From Calditrichota bacterium (GTDB taxonomy: Bacteria; Calditrichota; Calditrichia; Calditrichales; J004): a DNA stretch of 49,296 nucleotides. Location of the stretch: positions 1 to 49,296 of the forward strand of contig JAJRVW010000255.1 in the NCBI GenBank assembly GCA_024277115.1, written 5' to 3'. The notes beneath the pieces were generated by a model. It was not told the DNA's origin and did not search any database. It saw nothing but the letters and a program-made list of their open reading frames with translations. The translations under genes and the position numbers were made by a program. Position 1 is the stretch's first letter, and each line of letters opens with the position of its first letter. This document shows, piece after piece, positions 15,815 to 49,179 of the stretch.

Positions 15815-15872
15815 AAATACTATATTATCCTAAATCTGCGATTTATTTTAATTCCAATCCAAGGAAATGAAT

Positions 15873-18800: not shown

Positions 18801-20693
18801 CTTTTTGATAATGCCACTGAAGCCATCTATATATTAGATCAAAACTCGGTATTTTTGGATGTAAACAAAAGCGCCGAAAAAATGTATGGCTATAAAAAAG
18901 ACTACCTAATTGGCAATACGCCCGAAATCGTTTCTGCACCGGATAAAAACGATATGGAAAAAGTCAGCTCACATATCGAAAGTGCTTTTAAAGGTGGTTC
19001 ACCTACATTCGAGTTTTGGGGCAAAAACAAAAGCGGTTTTGTTTTCCCTATGGAAGTACATCTAAGCCTGGGCAACTATTTTGGAAAAAAAGTAATAATT
19101 GCCTTTGCACAAGATATTACCGAGCGTAAAAAAGCAGAGGACACTTTAAAAATTTCTGAAAAAAGCTATCGGGGGTTATTTGACAATGCCACAGACGCTA
19201 TCTATATCCAGAATTTTGAAGGTAAATTTTTGGATGTCAACAAAACTGTGGAAAAAATATATGGCTACTCCCGGTCTTATCTGATAGGAAAAAGCCCCGC
19301 AATACTTTCGGCCCCGGGTAAAAACGATTTGGAACATGTGGGCAAACTGATACAAAAAACCGTTGAAGGCCAGCCACAAAGTTTTGAATTTTGGGGAATA
19401 CGTAAAAATGGCGAAATCTTCCCGAAGGAAGTCCGGCTTAAGCGTGGGATTTATTTTGGACAAGATGCTATGATTGCCTTTGCTCAGGATATCAGCGCGC
19501 GTAAACAAGCCGAAGAAGAACGGGTGAAACTCGAGGCCCAGATCCAGCATACTCAAAAATTAAAAAGCCTCGGGGTGCTTTCCGGTGGTATTGCACATGA
19601 TTTTAACAATTTATTAACTGGCATTTTGGGCAATGTTGGCCTGGCCGAACTTGAACTGCCAAAAACATCCCCGGCTTTGGCCAATCTAAAACGTATCGAA
19701 ACCTCTTCCATCCGTGCTGCCGATTTATGCCGCCAACTATTGGCCTATTCCGGTAAAGGCAAATTTGTGGTGAAAGCCCTGGACTTAAATGAAGTGGTCG
19801 AAGAAATGGGCAGCCTGCTCGTAACATCCATTTCCAAAAAAGTTGTGCTAAAGTATAATTTTTATGATGATTTGCCCGCCGTAGAGGTAGATACGGCCCA
19901 AATAAGACAGGTAATTATGAACCTGATTATGAACGCATCGGATGCTATTGGTAAAAAGAGCGGGATTATCTCCATAACAACCGGTGCCATGAAATGCAAA
20001 GATGCCTATTTACATACAACTTTCTTAAATGACAACCTCACCGAAGGCGTATACGTTTACATTGAAGTATCGGATACCGGTTCTGGCATGGACAAGGAAA
20101 CACAGGCAAAGATTTTTGACCCATTTTTCACAACAAAATTTACAGGGCGTGGCCTTGGATTAGCCGCCGTTTTAGGCATTATGCGCGGCCACAACGGTGC
20201 TATTAAAATTTATTCCGAACCGGGCAAGGGGACATCGTTTAAGGTTCTTTTCCCTTGTAGCAATAAAACTGCCAGCCCGCTAAGCACAGGTTCCGAGGAG
20301 GCCCAACCCTGGAAGGCAGAAGGTACCATTTTAATTATTGACGACGAAGATACAATCCGTGCACTGGGCAGGCAGGCCCTTGAAAAAGCAGGCTTTAAAG
20401 TTATCACGGCCGCAGATGGTCGCGAAGGCATCAAGATATTTAAAAAAGAGAAAAAGTCAATCACAGCCGTTTTGCTTGATATGACCATGCCGCACATGAG
20501 TGGCGAAGAAACCTTCCGGGAAATGCGCCTGCTTGATAAAAATGTCAAGGTTCTGCTTTCCAGCGGATATAACGAGCAGGAAGCGACTAATAATTTTACG
20601 GGAAAAGGCCTGGCCGGATTTTTACAAAAACCGTATCGTGCCAGCGACCTGATTGAAAAACTAAAAGATGTTATAAATAATAATAGCCGTTAA
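15873..20693 (+). CDS. Hybrid sensor histidine kinase with multiple PAS and a GAF domain, interrupted by in-frame TAA
   Basis: Read through, about 1605 residues. In order: an N-terminal coiled coil, PAS domains (about 45-170, 180-300, 305-425, 430-550), GAF (about 560-710), four more PAS domains (715-1225), HisKA with the H-box LSGGIAHDFNNLL, HATPase (MNLIMNASDA, DTGSGMD, GRGLGLAAVLGI) and a C-terminal receiver (LLDMTMPHMSG). It has no membrane helix, so it is cytoplasmic. The start at 15873 is preferred because AAGGA lies about 7 nt before it; an ATG at 15867 abuts the site. Codon 503 (17379-17381) is TAA between GKPQIG and ITMIRKDGS, in the middle of the fourth PAS, and the frame then stays open to 20693. 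Divergent from the hydrolase operon. Confidence 0.8.
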
Positions 20694-24168: not shown

Positions 24169-27100
24169 TTACGATTCTTCCATAACACTTTTGACCAAAT
24201 TGGCAAGGTCTTCCAGGCGAAAAGGTTTCTGGATAAAACCGGCAGGTTTGTGATCATTAAAACGTTCTACAACTTCCAATTCGTTATAACCGCTGGAGAT
24301 TATTATTTTCAGGTCGGGCGTAATTTCCCTTAAAGCGTTGGATGCCTGTACACCGTCCATGTGTGGCATGGTCAAATCCATCAAAACCAAATCAATTTTT
24401 TCCATAGAACTTTTATATTTTTGCAGCGCGTCTCTTCCATCGATGGCCGTAATTATCGTGTAGCCCAAATTTTCTAACATTATTTTTGCAACAAGAAGAA
24501 CAGACTCTTCATCTTCCGCAATTAAAATGGTTCCTTTTGCATTATCATTCAAAGTATTTTTGCCTGTCGTCTTTTTCTTTTCTTCGGCCATATTGTTTTC
24601 TTTTACCGGAAAAAGAACCTGAAAGCTTGTTCCTTCACCTACCTTGCTTTCAATTCGGATTGCCCCTTTATGGCCACGTACAATCCCTAAAACTGCCGAA
24701 AGGCCCAACCCACGCCCCGTAAACTTTGTTGTAAAAAACGGATCAAATAATTTTTCTTTCGTTTCCTGCGACATGCCACATCCGGAATCGTTTACTTCAA
24801 AAAATAAATAATCGCCTTCTGCGATGGTTTCCGGCAAATAGCAAGATTCCAGGTATTTTTTATCACAGGCCTGGACGCCCGTTGTAATTTTTATCACGCC
24901 TTCCCGGTCACCAATGGCCTCCGAGGCATTTGTAATCAGGTTCATAACCACTTGCCTAATCTGTGTTACGTCCGCTTCAAAAATAGGCAGATCGGGCTTA
25001 AAATTAAATTTGAGCAGACATTTCTTGGAAATAGAAACTTCCAGCATCGTCACCATTTCTTTTATCAGCTCGTTTATTTGCACAAACTCGACAACAAATT
25101 TCCCCTTGCCGGAATAGGCCAACATTTGTTTTGCTAATTCCGCCGCCCTCTGCGCTGCATTCTGAATTTCCAGGATACTTTGTTTTGCACCGGAAAGTGG
25201 TGATAATTCCAGAAGGGCCAAATCTGCATTTCCCAATATTGTCATCAAAATATTATTAAAATCGTGGGCGATACCACCGGCAAGTACCCCAAGGCTTTTA
25301 AGCTTTTGGGTATGTTGCAATTGTTTTTCAAGATTGCTGCGCTCCTGCTCCATCAACCTTTGCTGTGTTACATCTTCCTGCACCATTACCACATCACGTA
25401 CAGCGCCATCTTCATCTTTTACCGGATAAATATAGCCACGCCCGATAATCTTTCTTAAAGTTGTCTCCTGCGGCCCTCTGTTCAAATTTGGGTCATATTC
25501 CATCTCCGGCATGGTAACCGTTTCCCCGTTAAACCCCCGCTCCACAATTGGCATTATACCGGCCTGTAAAACCTGGTTATCTTTAAGAATATTGAAGTTT
25601 TCAAGATAATCACTCACTATTTCATCAGATGCATGCCATAGTTTTTTAAAGGCCTTGTTTACCAATCGTGGCCTGCCCTCGGGTGAGAAAACAACCATAC
25701 TAAATGGCGCTTGTTCTACCAATGTCCTAAATTGGTTTTCGGATTCCCGTAAATTATGAATAATCCTTTGGCGTTCAAGTTCTACCGATGCGCGGTGGGC
25801 AAATATTGTTAAGATCGATTTGACATGTTCAACATTATGCATAGGCTTAGAGTGCATTACCACACAAAGCCCGAGCACCTTGCCTGCCGTATCAAACAGG
25901 GAAACACCCACATAAGAATCAACACCAAGCTCAACCAATAAACGATCTTCCGGAAAAAGAAGTTGTACATTTTCAGGATAAACCGCACTTATTTTCCCGA
26001 TTACATGTTCGCAAGGTGCGCCCAAGAGGTTATAACTTATATTTTCAGTAAGTTTGCCATGGGCATAAACAGCCATCGTATCGACAATTTGTGTACTTTT
26101 TTGCGATAGGGTCCCAACAAAAGCATAATCCATCTCTAATGTTTCGGCAAGGTAGGTCACAAGTATTCTAAAAAATTCCTGCCCATTGACCGGCGAGATG
26201 GCTTCCGCAATTTTCTTTAAAGCATTCTCGTTTTTCTTGCGGTCGGTTATATCACGTAATACCGCCTGCGATGCGACTTTGCCTTTGTAATTTATTGGCC
26301 CGCCACCAACTTCGACCACAACATGCGTTCCATCCAACCGGACGAGTTTTTGCTCTATAAAAGGAACGCGCCATCTTTTTTTATAGATCGTTTGGACACG
26401 CTCCTGATGAATCGGTTTATAGTCATCATGTACAAAATCAATAATTTTTTTCCCGATAAGCTGGCTGTAATGCTCTGCCCCAAATAAGCGGACTGCCTCG
26501 GCATTAACATACTCAAACTTACCACCACTATGGATAACAATGGCATTGGGCGATGTTTCCGTAAGGGAGCGGTAGCGTTCTTCACTTTCAACTAAATTAT
26601 CCTGTACCGTTTTTACTTCGGAAATATCCATCACATTTATAACCCACCTGATTATCTCTCCATTCTCATCTTTTACAACAGTCATATTATTTAAGGAGGG
26701 GAAGAGGGTATTATCCTTTTTTTGCGCAGAATCTCGAAAGTGCAGTTTCCTTCTATGCCCGATTTATGCAAATGCGACGAAACTTGCTGATGGCCCTCTT
26801 CATTAAATACATCATAAATTGATTTACCGGTTAACTCCTCAACACTATAACCGTGCATCTTTGCGAAGGTCATGTTCATCAATTCGAAGGTATTATTTTT
26901 ATTACAAAGGGCAATCCCCCATTTGGCATTTTCAAAAATATGCGCCCACAAATAAAGTGATTCTTCATTTTGTTTCTGGAGTATCGCTTTCGCTACCTGA
27001 GTGGATACAAACTCGAGCATGCGCTGATCCTCAATGGTGTAGGCCTGCGGGTCCGAGTAATGCTGAACGGCCATAACACCAATTGTTTTTTTATTGGCGA

Positions 27101-27821
27101 TCAGTGGCACGCCAAGCCAAATGGCCGAGGGCGCCCCAATAGTTTTCGCTTTGTTTAGCTTCTCAAGTTTTTTACTTAACGTATCGTCACATAAAAGTGG
27201 CTTGCCGCTCTTAAGTACATATTCGGTAAGACCTTTGCCTCTTTTACGTGGCGCTACGGATTGCTCCGATGTATCCTTAAAATATGGAAACGTAATTAAT
27301 TCATCGTTTTCCTGGGACAAAGCAATGTAAAAATTTTCTGCGTACATTACTGTTTTGATTATTTTATGGATTGCAAAAAAGAGCTCGCTAAGGTTATGGC
27401 TGGTACTTGCTGTTTGTGCAATTTTATAAATTGCCTGTTGAAGAATTTGTTGTTGCTTTTGTTCGGTAATATCACCGATAAGCACAATATAGGTCAGGGC
27501 GTTTTTTGATTCGGTTATAGCATTGCCTCTGCAGCGGAAATATTTTTTTGTTGGGTCTAAGGCATGTAATTCAAAAATTTTATCAAAACTTTTTTTATGG
27601 GCCAAAAGGTTTTCAATAAGTTTTATTAATTCACACTCCTTTATAAAATCCTGAAAGTTTATTTGATTAGATTTTTTTGTTTTATCACGGCTAAAAAGAG
27701 AAATAAAAAGTTTATTGGCAAATCTAACCCTTCCTGCCTTGTCCAATACCAATGCGCCAATAGGAATGGCATTAAAGGAAAGCAGTAAGAGTTCTTCGTT
27801 CATTTTTTGATATGAAGCCAT
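24169..27821 (-). CDS. Hybrid sensor histidine kinase (PAS/GAF), frameshifted at an A7 run
   Basis: Two overlapping-phase frames make one gene. Part 1 (27821 to about 26720) holds PAS, GAF and most of a second PAS ending FEILRKK. Part 2 (about 26715 to 24169) continues with the rest of that PAS (NTLFPSLNNMTVVKDENGE), then PAS, GAF, PAS, HisKA (LAGGIAHDFNNIL), HATPase (MNLITNASEA, GRGLGLSAVLGI) and a receiver (LMDLTMPHMDG). Inserting one A in the seven-A run at 26717-26723 restores a single frame of about 1215 residues. It begins 11 nt after the stop of the intact paralogue at 27833-30724, so the two share an operon. The shift may be real, a homopolymer sequencing error, or a slippage site. 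Confidence 0.78.
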
Positions 27822-34091: not shown

Positions 34092-35429
34092 ATGCCAAAT
34101 CTTATTGAGATTATAAAAAATGCCGGTGTTGTCGGTGCGGGTGGCGCGGGATTCCCGACCTATCAGAAGATAAATACAGAAGTTGAAATTGTAATTGCCA
34201 ACGGGGCCGAATGCGAACCGCTTCTATATAAAGATGTCACCTTGATGGAAAATTACCCTCAGGAGATTGTAAATGGCATGCTACGGGTGATGGAGCATGT
34301 TAAAGCCAAGCGCGGGATTTTTGCAGTTAAGGGGAAAAACAAAAAATCAATCGAGGCAATTTCCAATTGGCTACCGCAAAATATCACCCTCTTTGAAATG
34401 GAAGACGTCTATCCTGCCGGCGATGAATATGAGGTTGTTTATCACAGTACCGGGCGCCGAATCCCGGCAGGTGGATTGCCTTTTGAAATTGGTGTTGTAG
34501 TGCAGAACGTCGAGACCTTTTATAATATAGAGCAAGCTGCGCAAGGCAACGTCGTAACACATTCCATTTTATCCGTACACGGCGATGTAAAAAATCCGCT
34601 AACAGCCTGGTTCCCGATTGGCATGAGCTACGCGGATGTACTAAAAGAAGCCGGCGGCGCAACCATCGATGATTTTATTTTAATCGATGGCGGGCCAATG
34701 ATGGGCAAAGTAGTTTCTGATCTTTCTACTCCGGTCACACGCACATCCGGTGGATTTATCGTTCTCTCCAAGGAGACACACCTTGCCGTACGCAAATCAC
34801 AAAATGAAAAATCTTTTAAACGTGTAGGAAAATCGGCGTGTGATCAATGCAGTTTATGCACCGAAATGTGCCCGCGTTACCTGATGGGCTATCCCATAAA
34901 ACCACATTTGGTGATGCGCTCGTTGCTAACAACCGGCGAGTATAGCAAGACTTTAACATACTGGGCGCAAGCCTGTTGCGAGTGTAACATTTGTTCTTTG
35001 TGGGCCTGCCCGGAAGAATTGGACCCACGTAATATTTGTGTAACCACTAAGCGCGATACCAAAGAAAACAATATGTGGCTTTCAGCAGAACAGCTTCAGG
35101 AAATGAGTACAGAAGTCCATCCTTTAAAAGAGTATCGTGGCGTGCCTACCAAAAGGCTGGTAAGAAAATTAGGCTTACAAAATTATACAAAAAAAGCCCC
35201 GTTTCAGAAGCATATTAAAGAGCCGGAAAAAGTCTCAATCCCTCTGCAACAGCATATTGGCACATTACCGGATATTATTGTTAAACAGGGGCAAAAGGTA
35301 AAAAAAGGCCAGGTTTTGGCCGAAGCAAAAAAGGATGCTTTATCCATGCCCATCCATGCCAGTATGGATGGCATTATTGTTTCTCTTGGCGAGCGTATCA
35401 CGATTAACCGAGAACAGGGCAGTAATTAA
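34092..35429 (+). CDS. pduS: PduS-like RnfC-family Fe-S flavoprotein (microcompartment-associated)
   Basis: 445 residues. The order is that of PduS rather than RnfC: the NADH/FMN-binding Complex1_51K-like domain comes first (VVGAGGAGFPTYQK, ANGAECEPLL, VYPAGDE), then an SLBB part (PLTAWFPIGMSYADVLKEAGG, DGGPMMGK). Two [4Fe-4S] sites follow (C250/253/256/260 and C295-C306, ECNICSLWACP), and a C-terminal barrel-sandwich hybrid (QHIGTLPDIIVKQGQKVKKG). Known PduS is a flavin/Fe-S cobalamin reductase that passes electrons inside propanediol microcompartments and interacts with PduT. A PduT-like gene lies 245 nt downstream, which supports the assignment. Whether a cobalamin enzyme is the target here is unknown. 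Confidence 0.85.
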   Translation: MPNLIEIIKNAGVVGAGGAGFPTYQKINTEVEIVIANGAECEPLLYKDVTLMENYPQEIVNGMLRVMEHVKAKRGIFAVKGKNKKSIEAISNWLPQNITLFEMEDVYPAGDEYEVVYHSTGRRIPAGGLPFEIGVVVQNVETFYNIEQAAQGNVVTHSILSVHGDVKNPLTAWFPIGMSYADVLKEAGGATIDDFILIDGGPMMGKVVSDLSTPVTRTSGGFIVLSKETHLAVRKSQNEKSFKRVGKSACDQCSLCTEMCPRYLMGYPIKPHLVMRSLLTTGEYSKTLTYWAQACCECNICSLWACPEELDPRNICVTTKRDTKENNMWLSAEQLQEMSTEVHPLKEYRGVPTKRLVRKLGLQNYTKKAPFQKHIKEPEKVSIPLQQHIGTLPDIIVKQGQKVKKGQVLAEAKKDALSMPIHASMDGIIVSLGERITINREQGSN

Positions 35430-35673: not shown

Positions 35674-36222
35674 ATGTTATCAGCCATCGGACTTATCGAA
35701 CTTACTTCCATTGCCAAGGGTTACGAAGTTGCAGACAGAATGCTTAAAACAGCGGACGTAGATATTGTTTTTAACCGCTCTATCTGCCCAGGCAAATTTA
35801 TGGTTATGGTCGGTGGCGATGTTGATGCCGTCACTTCCAGCGTTGAAGCCGGCCTGGAAATGGGTGGCCAAACAGTTGTAGACGACCTGATAATCCCCAA
35901 TGTCCATCCCGATGTTTTTCCGGCCATAAGCGGCACAAATATAATTGAATCGCCCGATGCCTTGGGCATTATCGAAACTTTTTCAGTCGCCTCCATTATT
36001 GAGGCTGCCGATGCTGCTGTAAAAGCAGCCAATATTCAGTTAATTGAAATCCACCTGGCAATGGCCATCGGTGGCAAAGGTTATGTTACCCTTACCGGCG
36101 ATGTGGCCGCCGTAACCGCCGCCGTAGAAGCCGGCGTAGAATACATTAAGGCCAAAGGCATTCTTGTAAGTAAAGTTGTTATTCCCCACCCACGCAAGGA
36201 AATCCTCCGCGACAAAATCTAA
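35674..36222 (+). CDS. pduT: PduT-like tandem-BMC shell protein with Fe-S site
   Basis: 182 residues in two BMC repeats (about 1-90 and 92-182), so it forms pseudohexameric trimers (BMC-T) in a microcompartment shell. It follows PduT closely: AIGLIELTSIAKGYEVADRML, ICPGKFMVMVGGDV and the second-repeat ALGIIETFSVASIIEAADAAVKAA. Cys38 in ICPGKF is at the same number as the cysteine that binds a [4Fe-4S] cluster at the PduT trimer axis, thought to carry electrons across the shell. No hexameric BMC-H or pentameric shell gene is in the window, so the rest of any compartment must be elsewhere. Confidence 0.9.
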   Translation: MLSAIGLIELTSIAKGYEVADRMLKTADVDIVFNRSICPGKFMVMVGGDVDAVTSSVEAGLEMGGQTVVDDLIIPNVHPDVFPAISGTNIIESPDALGIIETFSVASIIEAADAAVKAANIQLIEIHLAMAIGGKGYVTLTGDVAAVTAAVEAGVEYIKAKGILVSKVVIPHPRKEILRDKI

Positions 36223-36482: not shown

Positions 36483-38384
36483 ATGGAAACAATTGAGACT
36501 ACCAAATCCGAAAATAAAATGGTAGATGGTTCAGATAAGGCAATACAACTGGACGAACATATTGTAGAGATTGTGAGCGATTCCGGCGAGGGTGCCCAGA
36601 CAGCAGGCCAGGCATTCGGTACGATTTGCGCCCGGATGGGAAATGGTATTTGGACTGTGGAAATTATACCTGCCGAGATTGAACCACCACCAAGAACAGC
36701 AGCCGGCGCCAGTGGGATCCGGATCCGATTTGGGACACACGATATCACCAATATGGGCGATGAAGCCGATTTGATGGTTGCTTTTAATGAGCAAGCCCTC
36801 TTAGGGCGTGAACAGTCCGGTAACCTGAAAAGAGGTTGCACAATCCTTCTCGAAAACAAATGGCGCACTTCTTCTAACAACTTAATCCGTGATCAATATG
36901 TGAGCACTTATAACCATCTGATCGAAGATGCTTATAAAGTGATTGAAATCCCGATGGAAGAAGAGACTTTAAAAATTGTAAAAAATCCCCGTCGCGGTAA
37001 AAACATGTTTGTACTTGGTTTGTTGATGTATATTTATTCCCGCGATATGGAACTCGCCCGCGAACAAGTCCGCTTTGCCTTCCGTAAAAAAGGGGATAAA
37101 GTTATTGATTCCAATATGCGCTTGCTTGATGCAGGTTATAAATGGGCAGAAAGTAACCTTGATTTTCAGTATTCGGTTCCTGCGGCCCCGATGAAAGAAT
37201 CCAAAATTGTTACCAATGGTAATATTGCCGTTGGCCTGGGTGTTATGGCCTCAGGGATGGATGTTTGCGCCATGTATCCGATCACACCTGCGACATCGGC
37301 CTCTCATTATTTAAGCGAAGTGTTTGAAAATGCCGGTGGAATTGTCCACCAGGCCGAAGATGAAATTGCGGCCGCCGGATTTGCCATTGGCGCATCGTAT
37401 GCAGGAAAATGTGCCGTTACCATCACCTCCGGCCCGGGCCTGGCATTAAAGACGGAACTTATCGGCCTGGCCTCGATGGCGGAAATCCCTCTGGTAATTG
37501 TGAACGTACAGCGTGGTGGCCCCAGTACAGGTTTGCCTACAAAAGTTGAACAGGGCGATCTCCTTGCAGCACTTTTTGCATCACCAGGCGATACACCAAA
37601 AATTGTGTTGGCCCCGGCAACTATAGAAGATTGTTTTTACAGCATTATTACTGCCCGTAAAATAGCAGAAACTTTCCGTATCCCTGTTATGGTACTTACC
37701 GATGCCAACCTGGCAACAGGCCAACAACCCTATTTGCGGCCAAATTTCAAAAAAGAATGGCTCGCCCCTCCATTTGACCAAAGCCCCGTGCCCGAAGGCT
37801 CTGCACCTTTTGACTGGGATGAAAAAACAGGACTTTCCAAGCGGATTATTCCTGGCCAGGCGGGAGGCATGTACCGTGTAACAGGCCTGGCACACACACG
37901 TTAAGGCAAAGTTGCCTACGATTCCGGTGTCAATCAAAAAAGCAGTGAATACAGAAGTCTAAAAATTGCAGCTTTTCAGAAAACATTGAAAACACCCAAA
38001 GTTTTTGGGGACGAAGAAGGCGATCTATTAATCCTTGGCTGGGGCAGTACAAAAGGCTCGATCGAAGAAGCAGTACAAATTGCCCGTAAACAAGGTTTAA
38101 AAGTTTCCAGCTTACACCTTAAATTTTTACAACCCATGGCCTCGGGCTTAAAACCGATCATGGAGAAATTTAAAAAAATCATTACTGTGGAAATAAATTT
38201 CTCGGATGATAAAAAGCACGAAATCATAAATGATGAAAACCGTCGATATTCCAACCTTGCCCTTCTATTACGCGCCCGTTATTTATTGGACATCGATAAT
38301 TTTTCCAATGTGCACGGCCAGCCGTTAAAACCTGGTTCAATTGTAAAAATGATCAAGAATGAAATTGAAAACCTGAAAGGCTGA
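36483..38384 (+). CDS. korA: 2-oxoacid:ferredoxin oxidoreductase alpha (gamma-alpha fusion), interrupted by in-frame TAA
   Basis: AGGAG lies 9 nt before the ATG. Read through, about 633 residues. A gamma domain (about 25-220, GEGAQTAGQAFGTICARMG) is fused to an alpha domain with the substrate motif MYPITPATSASHYL, TSGPGLALKTELIGLA and QRGGPSTGLPTKVEQGD, and a C-terminal domain (LLILGWGSTKGSIEEAV, INFSDD). It converts 2-oxoglutarate (or another 2-oxoacid) plus CoA to acyl-CoA with ferredoxin, together with KorB. Codon 474 (37902-37904) is TAA between GLAHTR and GKVAYDSG. The frame stays open and conserved on both sides, with no ATG for restart before 38384. For a core metabolic enzyme next to an intact korB, loss of function would be surprising. 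Confidence 0.88.
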
Positions 38385-38531: not shown

Positions 38532-39497
38532 ATGTTTGGTGTAAGCATAAACAACATAATAGATATAGACCAAAAGAATTACTCGATGGAAGATTATCAG
38601 GGGGATACGCCACGCTGGTGCCCGGGTTGTGGTGACAATGGGATTTTAACCGCCGCGCAACGTATCTGCCGTGAAGAACAATTACCACCGGAAAAAACGG
38701 TATTTGTTTCCGGTATTGGTTGCAGCAGCCGTTTCCCACACTATATGAACACCTATGGCTTTCATGGTTTACATGGCCGCGCTCTACCTATTGCCGAGGG
38801 GATAAAAATCCGCAGGCCCGATTTGCATGTGTTTGTAAATATGGGCGATGGCGATTGTACAAGTATTGGTACAGCCCACTGGATCCATGCTATCCGCTAT
38901 AATTTTAATATGACTGTTATGTTGCACGATAACGGCATTTACGGGTTAACAAAAAAACAAGCTTCCCCAACATCGCCACTCGGGACAAAAAGTAATACAA
39001 CTCCCAAAGGGTCCTTTTTGAACCCACTTAATCCAACAGTAACAACACTTGGCGTGGAAAATGTCTCTTTTGTTGCCCAGGCAGTAGAATGGATACCCGA
39101 GCTCCTTTACGATATTATCCGCCAGGCCTATCATCACAAAGGGTTTGCATTTATCCGTATTATGCAGCGCTGCCCGCATTATACGCCGGCCATGTTCGAT
39201 CCTTTAATGAGTACACCCGAAAACCTGATGTTACTTACCCACAAAGATGGTATGCAAATTAGCGATCCACTCAAAAAAGTCTACAAAAATATTGTTGAGC
39301 ATGACCCGTCTGAAAAACTAAAAGCAAATTATTATGCGGAAATGACTGACAAAATGCCAATCGGTATTTTATATAAAAATGAAAATATACCAACTTATGA
39401 CGGATTAAGGGCACCGGAGCGAACCGTTACACCACAAATGAAAGAAGAAGCCCTTAACCAGGAATTTGATAAGTTCGGAATAAATCCAAGAGATTGA
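38532..39497 (+). CDS. korB: 2-oxoacid:ferredoxin oxidoreductase beta subunit
   Basis: 321 residues. It carries the TPP-binding motif GDGDCTSIG with downstream HDNGIYGLTKKQASPTS, a cluster motif WCPGCGDNGI and a GIGCSSRF loop, all standard for KorB/PorB-type subunits. It binds TPP and a [4Fe-4S] cluster and works with KorA upstream. The 147-nt gap between korA and korB carries no gene. Its stop is 13 nt before the next gene, so korB and the PFOR-derived protein are probably co-transcribed. Confidence 0.93.
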   Translation: MFGVSINNIIDIDQKNYSMEDYQGDTPRWCPGCGDNGILTAAQRICREEQLPPEKTVFVSGIGCSSRFPHYMNTYGFHGLHGRALPIAEGIKIRRPDLHVFVNMGDGDCTSIGTAHWIHAIRYNFNMTVMLHDNGIYGLTKKQASPTSPLGTKSNTTPKGSFLNPLNPTVTTLGVENVSFVAQAVEWIPELLYDIIRQAYHHKGFAFIRIMQRCPHYTPAMFDPLMSTPENLMLLTHKDGMQISDPLKKVYKNIVEHDPSEKLKANYYAEMTDKMPIGILYKNENIPTYDGLRAPERTVTPQMKEEALNQEFDKFGINPRD

Positions 39498-39510: not shown

Positions 39511-42060
39511 GTGAAAACACCCGACCCAAAAGAAATTGATGAAACGAAGGTCTCCGACTCAGAAATTGACAGCAGCGACCTATTAAAAGAGCTCGATAAG
39601 ATTGCACATCATTTTGGAAATGATACCAGCCTGGAGATACACGAACAGGAAGCGCCCCAAGAGCAAATAAAACTGCATTTCGAAGAGACCGAGAAAAGTG
39701 AATATAGCTTGGATGAGATCAAGCACGATCATTTAAAATTTCACCTTACCGGCCACTCCGAACATACACCGGATGCCAATGTGAAAGACCTGCGCCCTGC
39801 GTTAAGCGCGCCTTTTACTAATTTTGAATATATTCGGCATGATTTTCCCCTCCTGATAAAAACCAGTTCCGATAATTGCATTGAACCTTTAAAAGATTAT
39901 CTGGATAACCTAGTTGAGCAAAGTGGGTTAAATACAGATGAGCAAAGGAACCTGAAACTTCTACTGCTGAAATTGGAACTAATCCTAAAAAAGGAAAGCG
40001 CCAACCACAGTGCGCTCGTATTTAAACAAGCATGGGATTTAGCCGTAAAAAACTTTTGGCAAAGCAGTAACTCGCACAAACAAAAAACAGACTCCCTTAA
40101 AACATTAATAAGTGGTTTTTCCGATCAGATTAATGACCATAGTGAGTTAATATCTTATAGTAAAGGTGCAGAGCTTACGCTGTTTAAGGCCGCCCGGTTA
40201 AAACAATGGCAAAAGAAGATGGCGCCCTTTTTTGGCGAATTGGAAGACTTGGTAGAGCATCTTAAAAATATCCTTAAGGTATCTAAAAAAACCTCTGGCG
40301 AATCGTATACGCCCGATGCATTGCAAAATACAATGGGCCAACCCGGTTCGGATGAACTGGATTTTAATTCTTTCTCAGAAATTGTTACCCAATCTTTTGC
40401 GAAAGAGAGTCTTCCCGCCAATAGAATCGAACGTATTAAGTCTGTAATTACAATATTAAATCGTTGGTTTAAAATAATTTCCTCAATGGAACAGAGTGAA
40501 AAATTCTTAGACCGCCTTGTGGCCGATTCTACGACCAAAGCATTAAAAATCTACAAAAGCCAAAAAGAGGATTTAATTGAATTCTTTAAGGCCATACGTA
40601 TTGCAAAACTGGAAATCGAACACCGCTATGAAGAGGAAAAGCACGATCCGTTCTTTGAAGATTTTTCTTCTTTGTACCTCTCGGAGGAAGATTGGTCGCA
40701 TTTCCCGCCGATCATTTTATATTTTAAAGCGCGTGAAATAAAAAGTGCGGACAAGGCCGATCTGATAGATGTACTTGCTTCGAAAATGCCTATAAAAGTA
40801 TTGGTGACTGTGGACGACCTCTACAACGCATCAACCTTTTTTGATGAATCGTTCTACTCGCCGGGCTGGTCTGCCGTTTTAGGGAAAATGGCCTTAAGTA
40901 TAAATACAACTTTTGTTTTACAATTTCCGCTTTCGCACATGATTAATGTACTTAGCGAGATTGAACAAGGACTGCAGAGTGACCGTGCTGCCCTTTTTTG
41001 TGTTTTTGATGGTTTTGATCAGGAACAGGAAATGGTTGCACCTTTTGTTCGAAGTGCTGCCGCTTCCGAATCACGGGCGTTTCCTCTTTTTTATTACAAC
41101 CCCAACCAGGGCAATAGTTGGGCAGCACATTTTTCCATCGCCAAATCATCACAACACAAATCGGACTGGCCACAAGGCGAGATTGAAATACTTGAGGGCG
41201 ATTCTGTAAAAACTGAAAAATTAGACTTCAGCCTCGGAGATTTCTTAACAGGTCTGGAAAGATATAAAGAGCATTTTTTACCCATTGAACGCTCGGAGTG
41301 GCATGGTGACTTAATTCCATTAACCGAATATATCCACTCTGATTTTGAAAATATTAATAAGAGTATACCCTACATTTTAATGGCCAATGATGAAGGCGCC
41401 ATGCAAAAAGTGATCGTTACAAAGACAATGTGCAGGCTTTGTGTAGATGCACAGATTCGCTGGAACCGCATTCAGGAATTAAGTGGTATAAACAACTCGC
41501 ATGTAATTGAACAGGTCGAAAAAGAACGCGAAAAAATGACCAAAGAAATGCAGGAAAAACTGGTTCAGGCAGAAGCCAAACACAAAGCTGAAATGGAACA
41601 ATCCGTTGAAGGCCTGACCAATGAAATTATCTCGAATATTGCCGCCGGGCTGCTCTCAGACGAAATGATCAGCATTGGTTCCGGCACAGGTATATCTGCC
41701 CCGCAGGCAACAATCCCAAAGGCCGCGCCAAAGCAAGAGGCAATCCAGGATGAAGTAAAAGAAAAACCAGAGGCACTGGAAGCAGCTACTGAAGAGGAGG
41801 AAGATTTAAGTTTTAACGACCCGTATATCGATACACCCTTGTGCACAAGCTGCAATGATTGTTGTAACCTGAACGACCAGATGTTTGCCTATGATGAAAA
41901 CAAGCAGGCCTATATTAAAGATGCCAAAGCCGGGACTTTTAAAGATTTGGTAACAGCGGCAGAAAAATGCCCGGTAAAAATTATACACCCCGGAAAGCCG
42001 TTAAACCCGGACGAACCGGGGCTGGATGAATTAATTAAGGAAGCAGAGAAGTATAATTGA
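39511..42060 (+). CDS. PFOR-derived protein with degenerate TPP domain and C-terminal ferredoxin
   Basis: 849 residues from a GTG start preceded by AAGGAAG. Residues 1-120 are acidic and low-complexity; about 130-370 are helical. Residues 370-690 match the TPP domain of large 2-oxoacid:acceptor oxidoreductases in overall pattern (RIAKLEIEHRYEEEKHDPFF, ESRAFPLFYYNP). The GDG cofactor motif is absent (ILYFKAREIKSADK occupies its place). A coiled coil (690-720) leads to a single-cluster ferredoxin (C778, C781, C784/785, C820) that normally ends the full-length enzymes. It is paralogous to the C-terminal third of the protein at 43156-47649. I infer an electron-transfer or scaffold role, not 2-oxoacid catalysis. 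Confidence 0.72.
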   Translation: MKTPDPKEIDETKVSDSEIDSSDLLKELDKIAHHFGNDTSLEIHEQEAPQEQIKLHFEETEKSEYSLDEIKHDHLKFHLTGHSEHTPDANVKDLRPALSAPFTNFEYIRHDFPLLIKTSSDNCIEPLKDYLDNLVEQSGLNTDEQRNLKLLLLKLELILKKESANHSALVFKQAWDLAVKNFWQSSNSHKQKTDSLKTLISGFSDQINDHSELISYSKGAELTLFKAARLKQWQKKMAPFFGELEDLVEHLKNILKVSKKTSGESYTPDALQNTMGQPGSDELDFNSFSEIVTQSFAKESLPANRIERIKSVITILNRWFKIISSMEQSEKFLDRLVADSTTKALKIYKSQKEDLIEFFKAIRIAKLEIEHRYEEEKHDPFFEDFSSLYLSEEDWSHFPPIILYFKAREIKSADKADLIDVLASKMPIKVLVTVDDLYNASTFFDESFYSPGWSAVLGKMALSINTTFVLQFPLSHMINVLSEIEQGLQSDRAALFCVFDGFDQEQEMVAPFVRSAAASESRAFPLFYYNPNQGNSWAAHFSIAKSSQHKSDWPQGEIEILEGDSVKTEKLDFSLGDFLTGLERYKEHFLPIERSEWHGDLIPLTEYIHSDFENINKSIPYILMANDEGAMQKVIVTKTMCRLCVDAQIRWNRIQELSGINNSHVIEQVEKEREKMTKEMQEKLVQAEAKHKAEMEQSVEGLTNEIISNIAAGLLSDEMISIGSGTGISAPQATIPKAAPKQEAIQDEVKEKPEALEAATEEEEDLSFNDPYIDTPLCTSCNDCCNLNDQMFAYDENKQAYIKDAKAGTFKDLVTAAEKCPVKIIHPGKPLNPDEPGLDELIKEAEKYN

Positions 42061-42109
42061 AAAAGAATAAAGATTGAAAGAAATCACTAAGTACAGGAAA
42101 AATTGCGTT

Positions 42110-42133
42110 TGTCATTCCGTAGGAATCTTTTTT
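42110..42133 (+). repeat. Half copy of GTCATTC repeat
   Basis: TTGTCATTCC-type bases followed by GTAGGAATCTTTTTT resemble one arm of the palindrome at 23834-23897. The second arm is not seen nearby. It lies between the PFOR-derived gene and rnfB. Confidence 0.35.
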
Positions 42134-42200
42134 CTCTAGATTACTAACAGTCACTAAACAGATTTTTCTTTAATCTTTTTTCTTGTCTCTTAAAAATTTT

Positions 42201-43034
42201 ATGAACCCTGTAATTGCCATCGCCTTTATTGGCGGATTGAGTTTAATTTTGGCGCTTATTTTAGCCATCGCAAACTCAAAACTAAAAGTTTTTGAAGACC
42301 CACGTATCGATAAAGTGGAAGAGATGCTACCCGGCGCAAATTGCGGAGCTTGCGGCCAACCCGGTTGCCGCGCTTTTGCAGAAGATGTAATAAGTGGCAA
42401 GAGCGTGCCTAGTGCCTGCACTGTTGGCGGTCCGGATACGGCAACAATTGTGGCCAACTACCTGGGTATTGATGCAGGATCAAGCGTACGTAAAATAGCA
42501 CGGCTTCTCTGTGCGGGTGGAACCGATGTAGCTGTTAAGTCAGCTGATTACTCGGGTTACGAATCTTGCCGGGCAGCAGCGGCTGTTTCCGGTGGACCAA
42601 AAGCCTGCACATATGGTTGCCTCGGTTTGGCGGACTGCGAATTGGTCTGTGATTTTGACGCCATTAAGATGAGCCCGACCGGCCTGCCCTTTGTAAATGC
42701 CACAAAATGTACCGCATGTGGGGATTGCGTAGAAGTTTGCCCAAAAAATTTATTTGAATTAATCCCCCTAAACCAACACTTGATTGTCCAATGTAAATCT
42801 GTTTTGGAAGGCGATGAAATTCTTGGGCTTTGTGAAGCTGCCTGCACCGCTTGTACACGTTGTGCTGCCGATGCCCCGGAAGGTTTGATCGAAATGAAAA
42901 ACAACCTGCCGGTTATAAACCCTGAAAAGCTAAAACTGGAAACAGATATTGCCACCCTGCGATGCCCGACCGGGGCAATAACATGGGTTGAAGAGCAACA
43001 ATTTAAACTAAAAAAAGAAGAAGATGCTGTTTAA
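42201..43034 (+). CDS. rnfB: RnfB-like membrane-anchored ferredoxin subunit
   Basis: 277 residues from ATG 42201, which begins the usual RnfB membrane helix (MNPVIAIAFIGGLSLILALI). A TTG at 42183 would add six residues and no start has a good ribosome-binding site. The Fes domain has GANCGACGQPGCRAFA. A CTACGDCVEVCP cluster follows, then CEAACTACTRC with its last cysteine supplied by RCPTGAITW, a variant known in RnfB-like proteins. RnfB takes electrons from ferredoxin for the Rnf ion-pumping complex. Its neighbours are the two PFOR-derived genes, with rnfC further downstream. Confidence 0.88.
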   Translation: MNPVIAIAFIGGLSLILALILAIANSKLKVFEDPRIDKVEEMLPGANCGACGQPGCRAFAEDVISGKSVPSACTVGGPDTATIVANYLGIDAGSSVRKIARLLCAGGTDVAVKSADYSGYESCRAAAAVSGGPKACTYGCLGLADCELVCDFDAIKMSPTGLPFVNATKCTACGDCVEVCPKNLFELIPLNQHLIVQCKSVLEGDEILGLCEAACTACTRCAADAPEGLIEMKNNLPVINPEKLKLETDIATLRCPTGAITWVEEQQFKLKKEEDAV

Positions 43035-43071
43035 CTTGGATAATTCTTAGACCAGAAATAAAGGTTCATCT

Positions 43072-43103
43072 TCATTCCAAATCAAATAGGAGATTTGGGA
43101 TGA
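43072..43103. repeat. Inverted repeat between rnfB and PFOR-derived gene
   Basis: TCATTCCAAATC and GATTTGGGATGA pair over 12 bp with one mismatch (or G-U), with an 8-nt loop. No T run follows. It resembles the TCATTC arms of the other palindromes in the window and may be of the same class. Confidence 0.4.
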
Positions 43104-43155
43104 GAGAAAAGATTAAGAATAGTTCAATAAATGAATCAAATTAAACGGATTAAAA

Positions 43156-46100
43156 ATGTTTTTTAAGAATAAAACAAAAAAAGAAAAGAAAGCCGCTTTT
43201 CCAGGGCAAATAGAATTAATAGACGGTAACAAATCCCTTTCATTCATTCTAAAAACTTCCGGAACACGTATTTTTAAAAATGAAGCTTTTTCCTCGGCTA
43301 TTGGCTATGCCTTAACCGGGAACAGGGCGGCAGCTTTTTTGGATTCGGATAATACCATCGACAATATCCAGGCCCTAAAATCTACACGAGAAACCCCTTT
43401 CCCACTTGTTATTTATGTACAAAACAAGGAACAAAACCAAAAAAATAATTTTTATAACGACTTTAAAAACTCATTTATCCTTTATCCGCAAACCGTGCAG
43501 GAGTTGGTTGATTTTTCATTAATTGCCCGTAAGGTAACCTAGACGGCACTGATCCCCGGATTTATTGTTTACGACGCGGCCCATTTTAATACGGCCTTAC
43601 AAAATATTAATATGCCGGAAGAAAAGTTTATAAAACAATTCCTTGGCAATACAGGTGATGAAATTGATGCACCTACACCAGCGCAGGCTATTCTTTTTAA
43701 CAAAAAGCGCTTTAGAAATCCCGCTTTGATTGACGTGCACAAGCCGCTTGGTATCGGGGTTAACCACGATGCAGAAATCGGGTTAAAATTAGAGGCAGTC
43801 CGGCATCCCTTTTTAAACAAGCATCTTTCAGAAATAATTGAAAAAACTTTTAGTGAATTTGAAGCTTTCAGTGGCCGGCATTATTCATCGGTAAATTTTT
43901 ATAAAACAGAAGATGCCCATTACCTGATTGCGGCAAACGGCCCGATGGTCAATCAACTTATAGCATTTGCAGACTGGGCCAGGGACAAACAGGATATAAA
44001 ATTAGGAATAATAAACTTGTCGTTGGCAAGCCCTTTTGATGGCGCTGAATTGACACACCACATTAAGAAAAAAAGCGCTGTAACAATTTTACAAAATTTA
44101 AGTGATCATTTTTTTAATACGCCTTTGATGGATTTAACACACAATGCGATCAATTTAGCTTGGGAAAATGGACGGCACCAAAAAGATAAATTGCCCCATT
44201 TGGGTTTTGCGATTTATACACACACAAAAGATCAACCCGAAATTTATAATGGATTTTACGCCACCTCGTTTAATGCAATAGAAGAGATATATACGATTGT
44301 TGAAAATATGCTGCCGGAAGGAAATCATAAAAAACTATTTTATTGTGGGCTAAATTTAAGTGTAAACCAGGCCCGTTTCCCTAAGCTGGAAGCATTGCAG
44401 CAGTTGATAAAAAAATCCTATCCGGAAATTGAAGAGTTGGCCTTATCAAAAAAGAATGGGTCATTTAATTTATCAGAAGAGAATACGCACAAAATCCAAG
44501 TGTATGCATCGCTTGCCCAGGATATAAAAGAGCTTGGCCATCCTCTGGCCGCAGCAGTCAAAAAAAGCGGATTCTTCCATACCGAAACTTTACTGAGTGA
44601 ACAAAAATCGGCAATGATGCCACTCCACAAATTTACACTTTTCTTTTCGGGTGAAGAGAGCATAACACCTTTTACCCTTAAAAAAACAGATGTAATGCTT
44701 CTTTCTGAACTCCAATTTAAAAACAACCTAAACGATCTCTCAGATAATGGGACCTTAGTTATCAACACACATTTTGAAGGCGCCAAACTCTGGGAGGAAC
44801 TCGGTGAAAAAGAACGGCAGATAATCCGTGATAAAAAGATCAGGCTATTTAGTATAAATACCCAGGAAATTGCCAGGGAGATTGACATTATCCCAGCCGG
44901 TACCGAACATCTAAAGCTCTGTGCCCTGCTTGGCGGCCTTTATAAAACCGATGCCATTTTAAGCATCCTAAAATTTGGCGTGCACCTAAACAATTTCAAA
45001 AAAATATTAAAAACAACCGGATTGTTCGATTCACAAATCAATGAAAAGACAAACGCAATAAAACGCGGTTATAATCTGACCAGCGAAATTGAGTGGCAGA
45101 AACTACCCGAATTTAGCGGCTTAAAAGTACCGGAAACAGAAGCGCCCTGGCATGTAAAACAAGTGAGAAACGCCGATGGCAGCATCTTTGACCTTGCCCG
45201 TAGTTGGGACTCGGTGGGCTATCTTTATAATAACAATCTTCAGGTACAGGAATTGGCCGATCCTTTTCTTGCCAGCAATACCCTGCCCGCACGTAGCAGC
45301 GCCTTTCGTGATATGTCGGAAATGAAAGAAAAAATCCCGGAAATAATTGCAGAAAAATGTACCGGGTGCGGAATGTGCTGGTCTCAATGCCCGGACTCCG
45401 CTCTGCCCGTTCACTTTATGGGCGTTGATGAAATAATCACAACAGCAATGAACAATGCGGCGGCACATGGCAGCAAACTTATCCAGATGCAGCGGATGGC
45501 CGGCAACTTTGCCAAACAGGCTTACACACTTTTTTCTACCGATGAGATGCGCCGCTTTTTAACAACACAGAACCTGCTTTCCGAGGCATTTAACCATCTT
45601 GTAAAAAAAATGGGGCTCAAAGGGAATGCCCTTCAAAAGGTAGAAAGCGAATTTAAAATATTTTTAGAAGAAGTACAGGAAATGCCGCTTATTAAAACCA
45701 CAACCTTTTTTGACCTGCCACACAAAAGCCAAAAAGGAACTGGGAAAATCCTGACTATTACTGTAAATGCCAATGCTTGCAAAGGGTGTGGTTCCTGTGC
45801 CAATGTATGCCCGGACGATGCCATCGAAATGCTGGACAATAATGCAGACATCCTTACATCGTACCGTAAAAATTTTGCCTTTATGCAATCCATGCCCGAT
45901 GTAAGCGCCGAACAAATCGAGCCATTTATTTCAACCCAAAACCAAAAATCGTTAGTAAATAAGCTCATCAACAAAAAAGCTTATTTTACTTTGCCCGGCG
46001 GCGACAATGCTTATCCGGGAAGTGGCGTAAAGGCCGCCGTACATTTGATGACGGCAAGTATTGAAGCAAAAATGAATGATAGGATTAGCGCTTTTGTAAC

Positions 46101-47649
46101 AAGAATCAGTTTATTGATTGAACAGCTCGAAGCAAGGATTCAGGGTGATATTCAAGATTCTGTTCAAATAAACGAGTTTGAAGCATTTAGCGATCGTCTT
46201 GCAGGACTGGACGAAACAGAAATAACTGCCCAGAAATTAATAGATTTGACCAATCCAAAAGAGTCAAAAAGTAAACTAAACACACAGTTGATAAAAAAAC
46301 TCAGTCGGTTAACCAAAGGTTTAATCGCCTTAAAAAATGAGTATATTTCCGGCGCGCACGGGAATGGCAGTGCACGGATGAGCATGGTCGTAAACAGCAA
46401 ACGTCTGCTTGCATGGAGCGCCGTTTATCCATTTAACCCATTTTCACACCCGTGGATAAATGCATCGGGCAATGACTTAGCCACGACTGCTCAAGGCATA
46501 TTTGACGGGCTCACCTATAAACTGGCCGAGAGTTTTAAACTGGTCCGGATTGCCGAGCTTGAGCTAAAAAACACTTATTCTGCCCGGGAACACGATGCGT
46601 TTTTTAATACTTTTGGATGGGACGATTTTTCTGATGAAGAACGCAAACTCTGCCCGCCTGCGGTTTTATTGCTGGATCAACAAGCGCTGGAACAACAAAG
46701 TTTTAAATCAATTTCCAGCCTCCTTAACACTGAAAAGCCGCTGTATATTTCTGTAGTTAACAACATGGTTGGAACAACCTCCGAAATTGGCCATGAGATT
46801 GCTTTATGGGCGCTAAGCCAGCACAACAGTTTTGTTCTGCAAAGTTCACCGGCCAATCCGGGCCATCTCATCAACGGGCTTGAGGAACTTCTTGAATCGA
46901 ATAAGCCGGGATTTGTGCACCTATACGCCTGCGAACCTTACATTCAGGGACTTGAAAAAGACCAGGCTTACACCCACGAACAGCGTGCCATAAACAGCCG
47001 GGTATTCCCACTCTTTAAATATAACCCCTTTATTTCAGATTATTTTATTGAGCGGTTCGACCTTTCCGGCAACCCGGAAATTGAATCGGATTGGACCTCA
47101 GCCCAGCCCATACAAAGTTCAAATAATGGCACCCGGATGGTTTCTACCACAGCAGACTGGGCCATCAATGAAAAATTTTATCGTGACGAGTTTCACGCAC
47201 TGGCCAAACGGGAGTGGAATGAAAAAATGGTGCCCCTGGATGAATTTTTAGAGATTGATATTTCGGAGCAAAAAGATTTTATACCCTTTATAAATGTAAC
47301 CGATTCAAAAAACACAACACATCGTGTACAGGTCAGTACAAAAATAGCCCGTCTGGCCCAAAAACACTTACGCACCTGGAACCTGTTGCAAGAACTGGCC
47401 GGTATCCGTATACATGACCGTGAATATCAGGAACAAAAATTTAACAAAATGCTGGAGAGTGAGCTAAGCCTGCAAAAAACAAATCTTGAGCAAGAATACA
47501 ATGCCCAAATCATGCAAGTTCAGCAAGAACATTGGCAAACGTATCACGGGCGTTTACGGGATAAGCTGACCGAGCTTTACAAAGCTAAAAATGACAAGGA
47601 ACGAATAAACAGCACATTAGCAGAGTACGCAAAGAACAAAGGTCGTTGA
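43156..47649 (+). CDS. Large PFOR-derived Fe-S protein with degenerate catalytic sites, interrupted by in-frame TAG
   Basis: Read through, 1497 residues matching the layout of large 2-oxoacid:acceptor oxidoreductases. A shortened domain I (1-150) lacks YPITP. A transketolase-C-like part and gamma domain follow (KIRLFSINTQEIAREI), then two ferredoxin motifs (C735/738/741/745 and C875/878/881/885). The region near 946-957 reads LPGGDNAYPGSG where catalytic enzymes have two cluster cysteines. A TPP-like domain has LDQ (1173-1175) in place of GDG, and the end is a coiled coil. Codon 129 (43540-43542) is TAG between ARKVT and TALIPG, and the frame continues open. Electron relay looks more likely than catalysis. 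The C-terminal third is paralogous to the 39511-42060 product. Confidence 0.78.
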
Positions 47650-47823: not shown

Positions 47824-49179
47824 ATGTTATCATTCTTATCAAAAACTCTAAAAACTTTTCGGCATGGCATTCATCCCGGCGATTATAAAGACTTGACCCG
47901 TGATTTAGACATTGCGCGTCTCCCTTTTTCCGATGAGCTTACAATCCCTTTAAGCCAACATCTGGGCGCACCATCGCGGTGCCTTGTAAAAGTAGGCGAT
48001 AAGGTAAACCGGGGCCAGATAATTGCCGAGCCTGCCGGTTTTGTTTCCATTGGGCAACACGCGCCAGTTACCGGTACGGTTAAGGCCATCGAAATGAAGC
48101 ACCACCCCAGCGGTAAAATGGTCGAATCGGTTATAATTACAAAAGACCCGTTTTCGCCCCAGACATTTTACAACGAACATGCCATGGAATGGGAAAACCT
48201 TTCTCCAGACGAACTTATTTCGCTGATACAGCATGGTGGTTTTGTTGGCCTCGGTGGCGCGGCATTTCCCACACATGTAAAATTGAAAACACCGGAAGGT
48301 AAAAATGCACGTTTCCTGATTGTAAACGGGGTTGAATGCGAACCTTACCTGACCAGTGACCATCGTGTCATGTTGGAACAATCAGCTGATATATTTTTGG
48401 GTATCCGCATTTTGCTTAAAATACTTGGAGCAGAAAAATTTTATATTGGCATTGAAAACAATAAGCCGGATGCCATCGCACTGCTTACAAAAAACATCCC
48501 CTCGGATATGAATGGCGAGGTAGTTGCCTTGCAGACAAAATATCCACAGGGCGCTGAAAAAATGTTGATCGAAGCCGTGTTAAAACGGGAAGTACCCAGC
48601 GGGAAATTACCGATCGATGTGGAAGTTGTTGTGCAAAACTCGGGTACTATTGCTGGAATAGGCATGATGTTCCGTTTTGGGCAGCCGCTGATTGAACGGG
48701 TTGTAACCATTACCGGGCCTGGAATTAATAATCCTGCCAACCTGCTTATACCAATTGGCACGCCGCTTACAGATGTGTTGGATTATTGCGGTGGCCTTAA
48801 AGAGAATACCCGCCAGGTATTATTTGGCGGCCCCATGATGGGCGCACCACAATCTGATTTAGATGTTCCTATTTTAAAGGGTACGTCAGGCATACTTTGC
48901 CTCACCGACGAAGAAGTCACCATAAAAGAAGAGTTTCCATGCATCCGCTGCCTGCGTTGCGTTGATGCCTGTCCGGTTTATCTCAATCCAAGCCGATTGG
49001 GGGCCTTGGCTAAAACCCGCGACTATGAAGGGATGCTCGAATACCACGTGATGGATTGTGTGGAATGCGGCTCGTGTTCGTATGTGTGCCCCTCCAACAT
49101 TCCACTAGTTCAGAGGTTCAGGGTTTCTAAAGCTTTGCTGCGGGAAAAACAGGCCAAAGCGGTTAAAAAGAGCGCGTAA
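47824..49179 (+). CDS. rnfC: RnfC, NADH-binding subunit of Rnf electron-transport complex
   Basis: 451 residues with full RnfC order. An N-terminal barrel-sandwich (QHLGAPSRCLVKVGDKVNRGQ, residues about 42-85) is followed by the Complex1_51K FMN/NADH domain (GLGGAAFPTHVK, VNGVECEPYL, YPQGAEKML), an SLBB domain (PIGTPLTDVLDYCGG, GGPMMGAP) and two [4Fe-4S] motifs (CIRCLRCVDACP and CVECGSCSYVCP). It exchanges electrons between NAD and ferredoxin at the membrane complex. RnfD/G/E/A are expected downstream but lie outside the window. Unlike common rnf operons, rnfB is separated from it by a 4.5-kb PFOR-derived gene. Confidence 0.94.
   Translation: MLSFLSKTLKTFRHGIHPGDYKDLTRDLDIARLPFSDELTIPLSQHLGAPSRCLVKVGDKVNRGQIIAEPAGFVSIGQHAPVTGTVKAIEMKHHPSGKMVESVIITKDPFSPQTFYNEHAMEWENLSPDELISLIQHGGFVGLGGAAFPTHVKLKTPEGKNARFLIVNGVECEPYLTSDHRVMLEQSADIFLGIRILLKILGAEKFYIGIENNKPDAIALLTKNIPSDMNGEVVALQTKYPQGAEKMLIEAVLKREVPSGKLPIDVEVVVQNSGTIAGIGMMFRFGQPLIERVVTITGPGINNPANLLIPIGTPLTDVLDYCGGLKENTRQVLFGGPMMGAPQSDLDVPILKGTSGILCLTDEEVTIKEEFPCIRCLRCVDACPVYLNPSRLGALAKTRDYEGMLEYHVMDCVECGSCSYVCPSNIPLVQRFRVSKALLREKQAKAVKKSA

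Follow-up and report, generated by a model that had tools for sequence, protein, structure and literature searches.

Pseudo-PFOR proteins with retained iron-sulfur modules are encoded among 2-oxoacid:ferredoxin oxidoreductase and Rnf genes in a Calditrichota bacterium

The window analyzed here, a 49,296-nucleotide stretch of DNA from a Calditrichota bacterium (contig JAJRVW010000255.1 of assembly GCA_024277115.1), corresponds to contig C211 of a 4.97-Mb draft genome (G000). Its forward strand, on which all the genes described below with window coordinates for the operon lie, contains the order KorA-KorB-A-RnfB-B-RnfC, in which A (positions 39511 to 42060) and B (positions 43156 to 47649) are relatives of long pyruvate:ferredoxin oxidoreductases (PFORs). 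That A and B are pseudoenzymes, PFOR derivatives predicted to be catalytically dead, is well shown by the comparisons given below. The explanation that we consider probable is that they constitute an adaptor docking KorAB, the two-subunit enzyme encoded just upstream, to the Rnf complex, with the ferredoxin of A and, usually, the clusters of B carrying the electrons. The observations on which this explanation is built are descent from a long PFOR (T), conserved motif loss, retained cluster ligands, purifying selection, and gene order.

Both proteins were aligned with canonical PFORs (Escherichia coli YdbK and PFORs from the same phylum) and with the catalytic long PFOR T. The YPITP, GDG, and NTGG motifs and all four cysteines of the proximal cluster were absent from both window proteins. 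An earlier sequence-only reading had already reported the loss of YPITP and GDG, together with two of the proximal cysteines, and the loss proved to extend to all four. The same reading had described the electron transfer modules as intact, and indeed the eight cluster cysteines of B and the four ferredoxin cysteines of A were present. The two motifs do occur immediately upstream, YPITP in KorA and GDG in KorB.

A is an 849-amino-acid open reading frame that corresponds to the second half of a long PFOR minus the 2x[4Fe-4S] part. Its sole Pfam match was the C-terminal single-cluster ferredoxin PF13370 (residues 773 to 826; 28.7 bits versus a gathering score of 24.5), and no NCBIfam family matched it at an E value of ≤0.001. 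The ferredoxin module (residues 770 to 849; positions 41818 to 42060), with cysteines 778, 781, 784, and 820, also matched Desulfovibrio ferredoxin I (1dax). For its part, B has all the PFOR domains recognizable by profile-profile comparison with canonical PFOR but no C-terminal ferredoxin. Its two [4Fe-4S] motifs, CTGCGMCWSQC and CKGCGSCANVC, span approximately positions 45355 to 45840, were matched by PF00037 in two stretches, and comprise Cys 735/738/741/745 and Cys 875/878/881/885 in read-through numbering. The large open reading frame of B (43612 to 47649) was matched by TIGR02176 in three pieces, at 88.6 bits versus a cutoff of 911. Neither protein reaches the PFOR family cutoff or has the thiamine pyrophosphate (TPP) and substrate motifs or the proximal cluster, and what links them to the family is common descent in both cases and the 2x[4Fe-4S] domain in B, which is missing from A.

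The same losses were found in the relatives. TPP motifs, proximal cysteines, and a 2x[4Fe-4S] region were missing from all A proteins examined, each of which kept the four ferredoxin cysteines. All B proteins covering the region concerned were devoid of YPITP and the proximal cysteines, and GDG was missing in nearly all of them; the B proteins of genomes G143 and G279 retained a GDG-like string, but neither YPITP nor the Asn of NTGG. The eight cluster cysteines were kept in every B protein covering the region, except for that of G279. The sequence-only reading had proposed checking the motif losses across relatives, and those of YPITP and the proximal cysteines were the same in all the relatives checked.

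The origin of A and B became apparent by comparison with T, which is encoded in the same genome (contig C178, L018:12616-19991) within a second rnf operon of the order RnfB-T-RnfC-DGEA. This protein of 1,635 amino acids contains YPITP, GDGAMYDIGF, NTGG, all the proximal and 2x[4Fe-4S] cysteines, and a C-terminal ferredoxin. Members of the T family have 1,500 to 1,750 amino acids, mostly with the same C-terminal ferredoxin, and their active-site motifs are complete in most genomes. At loci L018, L104, L099, and L029, a second rnf operon has a T protein with a fused ferredoxin, catalytic by its motifs, inserted between RnfB and RnfC. T keeps clusters and ferredoxin together, while B holds the clusters and A the ferredoxin, neither of them with an active site. 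In profile-profile alignments (hhalign), 749 of 843 columns of A aligned with the second half of T (E = 5e-109), and the alignment of B with canonical PFOR spanned 1,000 columns (E = 2.6e-47). Directly against canonical PFOR, A gave only a weak match (128 columns; probability, 90%), its link to the family being clear only via T. A and B share a region of about 360 residues with 25% identity (E = 2.9e-28), so that the common C-terminal third described in the sequence-only reading is real; A, however, spans the whole second half of T minus the 2x[4Fe-4S] part.

A tree was built on the C-terminal region common to A, B, and T and rooted with canonical PFOR. T branched first, followed by a group containing the T protein of G227, A, and B (98/95), in which B formed one clade (99/98) and A another (90/85); the positions of T of G118, B of G092, A of G259, and T of G227 were uncertain owing to long branches. 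In two genomes, G021 and G023, both proteins are long (about 1,470 amino acids for A and 1,580 to 1,620 for B), and the N-terminal PFOR domains of A are present but degraded. Since A and B are both long in these genomes and form two old paralogous clades, they are old duplicates of T, with complementary losses, and not the halves of a recently split protein. Of the split or duplicated heterodimer suggested by the sequence-only reading, duplication with complementary loss is thus what stands, and a simple split is not. The T proteins of G227 and G156, which are devoid of the TPP motifs but retain the clusters and the ferredoxin, look like intermediate stages, giving a putative evolutionary series from active T, through TPP-less T in G156 and G227, to A and B. 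That nesting of the A and B clades with T had been missed in the sequence-only reading, as had the upstream KorAB with its intact catalytic motifs and the second rnf operon with T.

To assess constraint, G000 was compared with its congener G001. The synonymous substitution rate was saturated (proportion of synonymous differences [pS], about 0.7 to 0.8), and the ratio of the proportions of nonsynonymous (pN) and synonymous differences was therefore used. Amino acid identity between the congeners was 72% for A and 67% for B, compared with 93 to 94% for KorAB and 91% for RnfC, and pN/pS was ∼0.21 for A and ∼0.26 for B. A and B are faster evolving but are under purifying selection. Within A, identity reached 91% in the ferredoxin and 83% in the domain VI-like part, falling to 39% in the Ala/Pro/Glu-rich linker that precedes the ferredoxin. 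Within B, it was 79.5% in the cluster region and ∼50% in the PYR-like first part, the least constrained. Such a profile would be expected if an electron carrier were tethered to a docking body, and it speaks against decay. The sequence-only reading of A and B as dead PFOR derivatives with kept electron transfer modules in an rnf operon was borne out by the conservation of the losses across phylum-level groups, by purifying selection, and by the finding that the cluster-bearing parts are the most constrained.

The order KorA-KorB-A-RnfB-B-RnfC, mostly followed by RnfD, G, E, and A, is conserved in the window phylum (G000, G001, G003, G021, G023, and G030) and, beyond it, in three or more phylum-level groups. 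The same order from KorA to RnfC was found in G092, G523, and G524, from a phylum sampled by 9 genomes; in G275 and G518, from one sampled by 7; and in G143 and G279, from one sampled by 2, with extra genes in G143 and with no KorA found beside the KorB of G279. In G143 (L095:14517-19549), the Kor genes are doubled ahead of A, and several extra genes lie between RnfB and B. A partial order running to contig ends was observed in G005, G036, and G246. The YPITP motif of KorA and the GDG motif of KorB were intact in nearly all clusters, except in a second Kor gene pair in G143 and in G279, where no KorA was seen. A scan of named genomes yielded only one further locus, L006 (Calditrichaeota bacterium), which, together with G006, points to Calditrichota as the window phylum.

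Other arrangements were also found. In G227 and G259, KorA-KorB and a short A come after RnfB-T-RnfC-DGEA, and G028 has KorAB-A at one locus and T-RnfC elsewhere. In the Caldithrix-like genome G006, rnfB and rnfC overlap with nothing between them, and A, B, and T are absent; genomes of the neighboring family around it encode a canonical PFOR and none of these three proteins, and their rnf operon contains no inserts. In the window's own family, no PFOR above the family cutoff was found. In a tree of RnfC, the proteins from B operons and T operons separated by operon type and not by species, the B-operon clade as a whole being weakly supported (68/65). In G327 (84% complete; L102:2360-10385), KorA-KorB directly precedes a catalytic T, and no RnfC was found in the genome.

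The wiring, with its physical complex, electron path, and direction, is inferred from how the operon is arranged, from the pattern of constraint, and from the cofactor motifs that have been kept. In the proposed mechanism, KorAB would oxidize a 2-oxoacid, probably 2-oxoglutarate to judge from its subfamily alone, while A and B, as a PFOR-like pair, would hold KorAB beside the Rnf complex. The ferredoxin of A, on its flexible linker, would swing from the KorB cluster to RnfB, and the two [4Fe-4S] clusters of B, where present, might offer an extra electron path. The outcome would be a dedicated ion-pumping 2-oxoacid:NAD+ assembly independent of free ferredoxin, which, operating backward, could also drive reductive carboxylation. 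The T operon would represent a simpler version, in which a single active PFOR with a ferredoxin of its own occupies the same position within an rnf operon. An electron relay feeding Rnf had been put forward in the sequence-only reading, and a relay is also the best explanation here, although not an isolated one, as KorAB is encoded in the same operon. Its assignment of the relay to both proteins holds for the ferredoxin of A, whose cysteines are kept in every A examined; the clusters of B are not universal, having been lost in G279.

If the adaptor reading is correct, a large multidomain metabolic enzyme has been turned into pure electron wiring, and anaerobes would channel the low-potential electrons of 2-oxoacid oxidation straight into Rnf, or back, without a diffusible ferredoxin pool, in what would be a testable complex. 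In terms of annotation, A- and B-like proteins could be called pyruvate oxidoreductases, a name that would need correction. We propose more tentatively, as an idea that may well prove wrong, that the replacement of free ferredoxin between KorAB and Rnf by a dead PFOR heterodimer is one case of a PFOR clade plugging into respiratory pumps, mostly Rnf and, in G118, an 11-subunit complex I. In G118 (L129:8998-14350 and L106:351-10120), genes that by eye look like nuoABCDHIJKLMN, which would make an 11-subunit complex I lacking nuoEFG, are followed by a T-type PFOR of 1,517 amino acids with all TPP motifs and cysteines and with no C-terminal ferredoxin; RnfC was not found in this genome. Here the PFOR may take the place of the NADH module of complex I.

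Several observations weigh against the adaptor reading. The B protein of G279 (L096:5083-9723) has lost both [4Fe-4S] motifs yet keeps its full length; because of this loss, B in that lineage could only be structural and would not always be a relay. G048 (99% complete; L030:6230-11281) has KorA-KorB-A, and RnfC was not found in its genome, which suggests that A can work without Rnf. Given the clusterless B of G279 and the lack of RnfC in G048, the A ferredoxin would be the invariant element of the system, and B could be structural. In the assembly of the window, one in-frame stop interrupts each of the KorA and B genes. Finally, AlphaFold models of A and the C-terminal part of B, made from few alignment rows (the window proteins and L006), reached mean predicted local distance difference test scores of only 37 and 43 and were not used. 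No other A was found in 133 genomes of the phylum of G048, whose KorA-KorB-A cluster was probably acquired by horizontal transfer.

The clusterless, full-length B of the G279 operon would be readily accommodated if A and B had only a structural or assembly role alongside KorAB and Rnf, with the electrons traveling via an ordinary soluble ferredoxin, as is generally the case for two-subunit KorAB enzymes. We regard this as unlikely, although worth keeping in mind: the ferredoxin is the most constrained part of A (91% versus 72% overall) and keeps its cysteines in all relatives, as one would not expect if A were only a scaffold, and the clusters are kept in every other B protein covering the region. 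A somewhat more doubtful alternative is that A is an acceptor subunit of KorAB without any special tie to Rnf and that B is a T-derived protein on the Rnf side with another role, their proximity reflecting coregulation. KorAB-A does occur without B in G028, G038, and G048, the last of these being one in which no RnfC was found, and A directly follows KorAB whether or not Rnf genes adjoin. However, in four phylum-level groups or more, the A gene is flanked by KorB and RnfB and the B gene by RnfB and RnfC, and G028, G227, and G259 have T at the place of B in the rnf operon.

The paralogy of A, B, and T, the presence of T in the same genomes (e.g., G000), and the fact that PFOR works as a dimer would fit A and B being regulatory decoys that pair with an active T-type PFOR to tune it. 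There is little to recommend this idea, as G021 and G023 have A and B with no T seen there, and A and B are located in the Kor-Rnf operon, not in that of T. Catalysis by a new, TPP-free chemistry, which the large folded domains kept under purifying selection might suggest, is highly improbable given that most A proteins have no PYR-like half, which in B is the part under the weakest constraint. Simple decay of the operon, to which the in-frame stops in KorA and B might point, is the least credible reading, the operon being intact both in the congener and in further phylum-level groups and constraint being evident on both sides of the KorA stop, while other interrupted large genes of the window (at 17379 and near 26690) suggest consensus error or strain mixture.

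As regards these stops, the stretch 43156 to 47649 had been taken as a single protein; in this assembly, its frame is broken by a TAG at positions 43540 to 43542, which splits B into 43156 to 43542 (128 amino acids) and 43612 to 47649 (1,345 amino acids). KorA is interrupted by a TAA at positions 37902 to 37904. Both frames are uninterrupted in G001 (633 amino acids for KorA and 1,489 for B), and the KorA stretch beyond the TAA is still constrained (pN of 0.061 versus pS of 0.70 between the congeners). Since the congener frames are open, the region after the KorA stop is constrained, and other large window genes are interrupted, the evidence suggests that the stops are consensus errors, strain mixture, or very recent events. 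Recoding of stop codons was rejected: other genes terminate normally at TAA and TAG, and the frames of the relatives are open without recoding. Elsewhere in the window, a PAS-domain histidine kinase gene (15867 to 20693) has an in-frame stop at 17379, and PAS-domain histidine kinase pieces (24169 to 27821) show a possible frameshift near 26690. These interrupted genes hint at consensus errors in the contig.

Compared with known systems, B resembles the single-chain PFORs (Desulfovibrio africanus 1b0p, 6cin, E. coli YdbK; TIGR02176) in domain order, including the two [4Fe-4S] motifs, and A shares with them the domain VI-like part. Both differ from them in being devoid of YPITP, GDG/NTGG, and the proximal cysteines and in having a longer C-terminal region; A carries an extra C-terminal ferredoxin, absent from YdbK. 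The parent family, T-type PFOR, sits between RnfB and RnfC exactly as B does. KorA-KorB has the architecture of the Sulfolobus-type enzymes (5b46/5b48, 6n2n, and 8ys5) with the motifs intact. Known KorAB enzymes use separate acceptors, whereas in the window the KorAB genes precede that of A, with its tethered ferredoxin, and Rnf genes. The rnfBCDGEA genes of Caldithrix abyssi form an uninterrupted run with no inserts (PMC5317091). In the Desulfitobacterium 11-subunit complex I-like enzyme, PFOR has been suggested as the donor and a soluble ferredoxin proposed as the shuttle (PMC11238625); what it has in common with the present proposal is that electrons from PFOR would feed an ion pump, and it has no pseudo-PFOR adaptor. 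The text of a 2025 review on Rnf and Nqr contained no match for "2-oxo" or "accessory" (PMC12174285). In the open-access literature, of which coverage was incomplete, no description of a PFOR in an rnf operon or of dead PFOR adaptors was found. What is known already comprises the 2-oxoacid:ferredoxin oxidoreductases, Rnf, and soluble ferredoxin between them, and KorAB, RnfB, and RnfC are ordinary members of their families.

KorA (36483 to 38384) is a gamma-alpha fusion of 2-oxoacid:ferredoxin oxidoreductase with YPITP, matching PF01855 and PF01558. The part ahead of its stop scored 423.9 bits with TIGR03710, below the curated cutoff of 482.75. KorB (38532 to 39497) is the TPP-binding subunit, with the motifs CPGCG, CSSR, and GDGDCTSIG; it scored 253.3 bits with TIGR02177, short of the curated cutoff of 261.9, and its closest solved structures were the beta subunits 5b46/5b48, followed by 6n2n. 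Together, a gamma-alpha fusion with YPITP and a beta subunit with GDG and the cluster cysteines make up the KorAB architecture.

The placement of A and B around rnfB and before rnfC, as read from the sequence alone, was confirmed by profile searches. RnfB (42183 to 43034) scored 83.4 bits with TIGR01944 versus a cutoff of 68.7 and matched PF04060, and RnfC (47824 to 49179) scored 542 bits with TIGR01945 versus a cutoff of 246, so that both exceed the curated cutoffs for subunits of the Rnf complex (rnfBCDGEA). The contig ends just beyond RnfC; in the congener, RnfD, G, E, and A come after it. Directly upstream of KorA lie genes for a PduS-like RnfC homologue (34092 to 35429) and a PduT-like shell protein (35674 to 36222). 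Not seen upstream of KorA in other families, these genes also precede it in G001 and G003, and a shell-protein remnant is present in G005.

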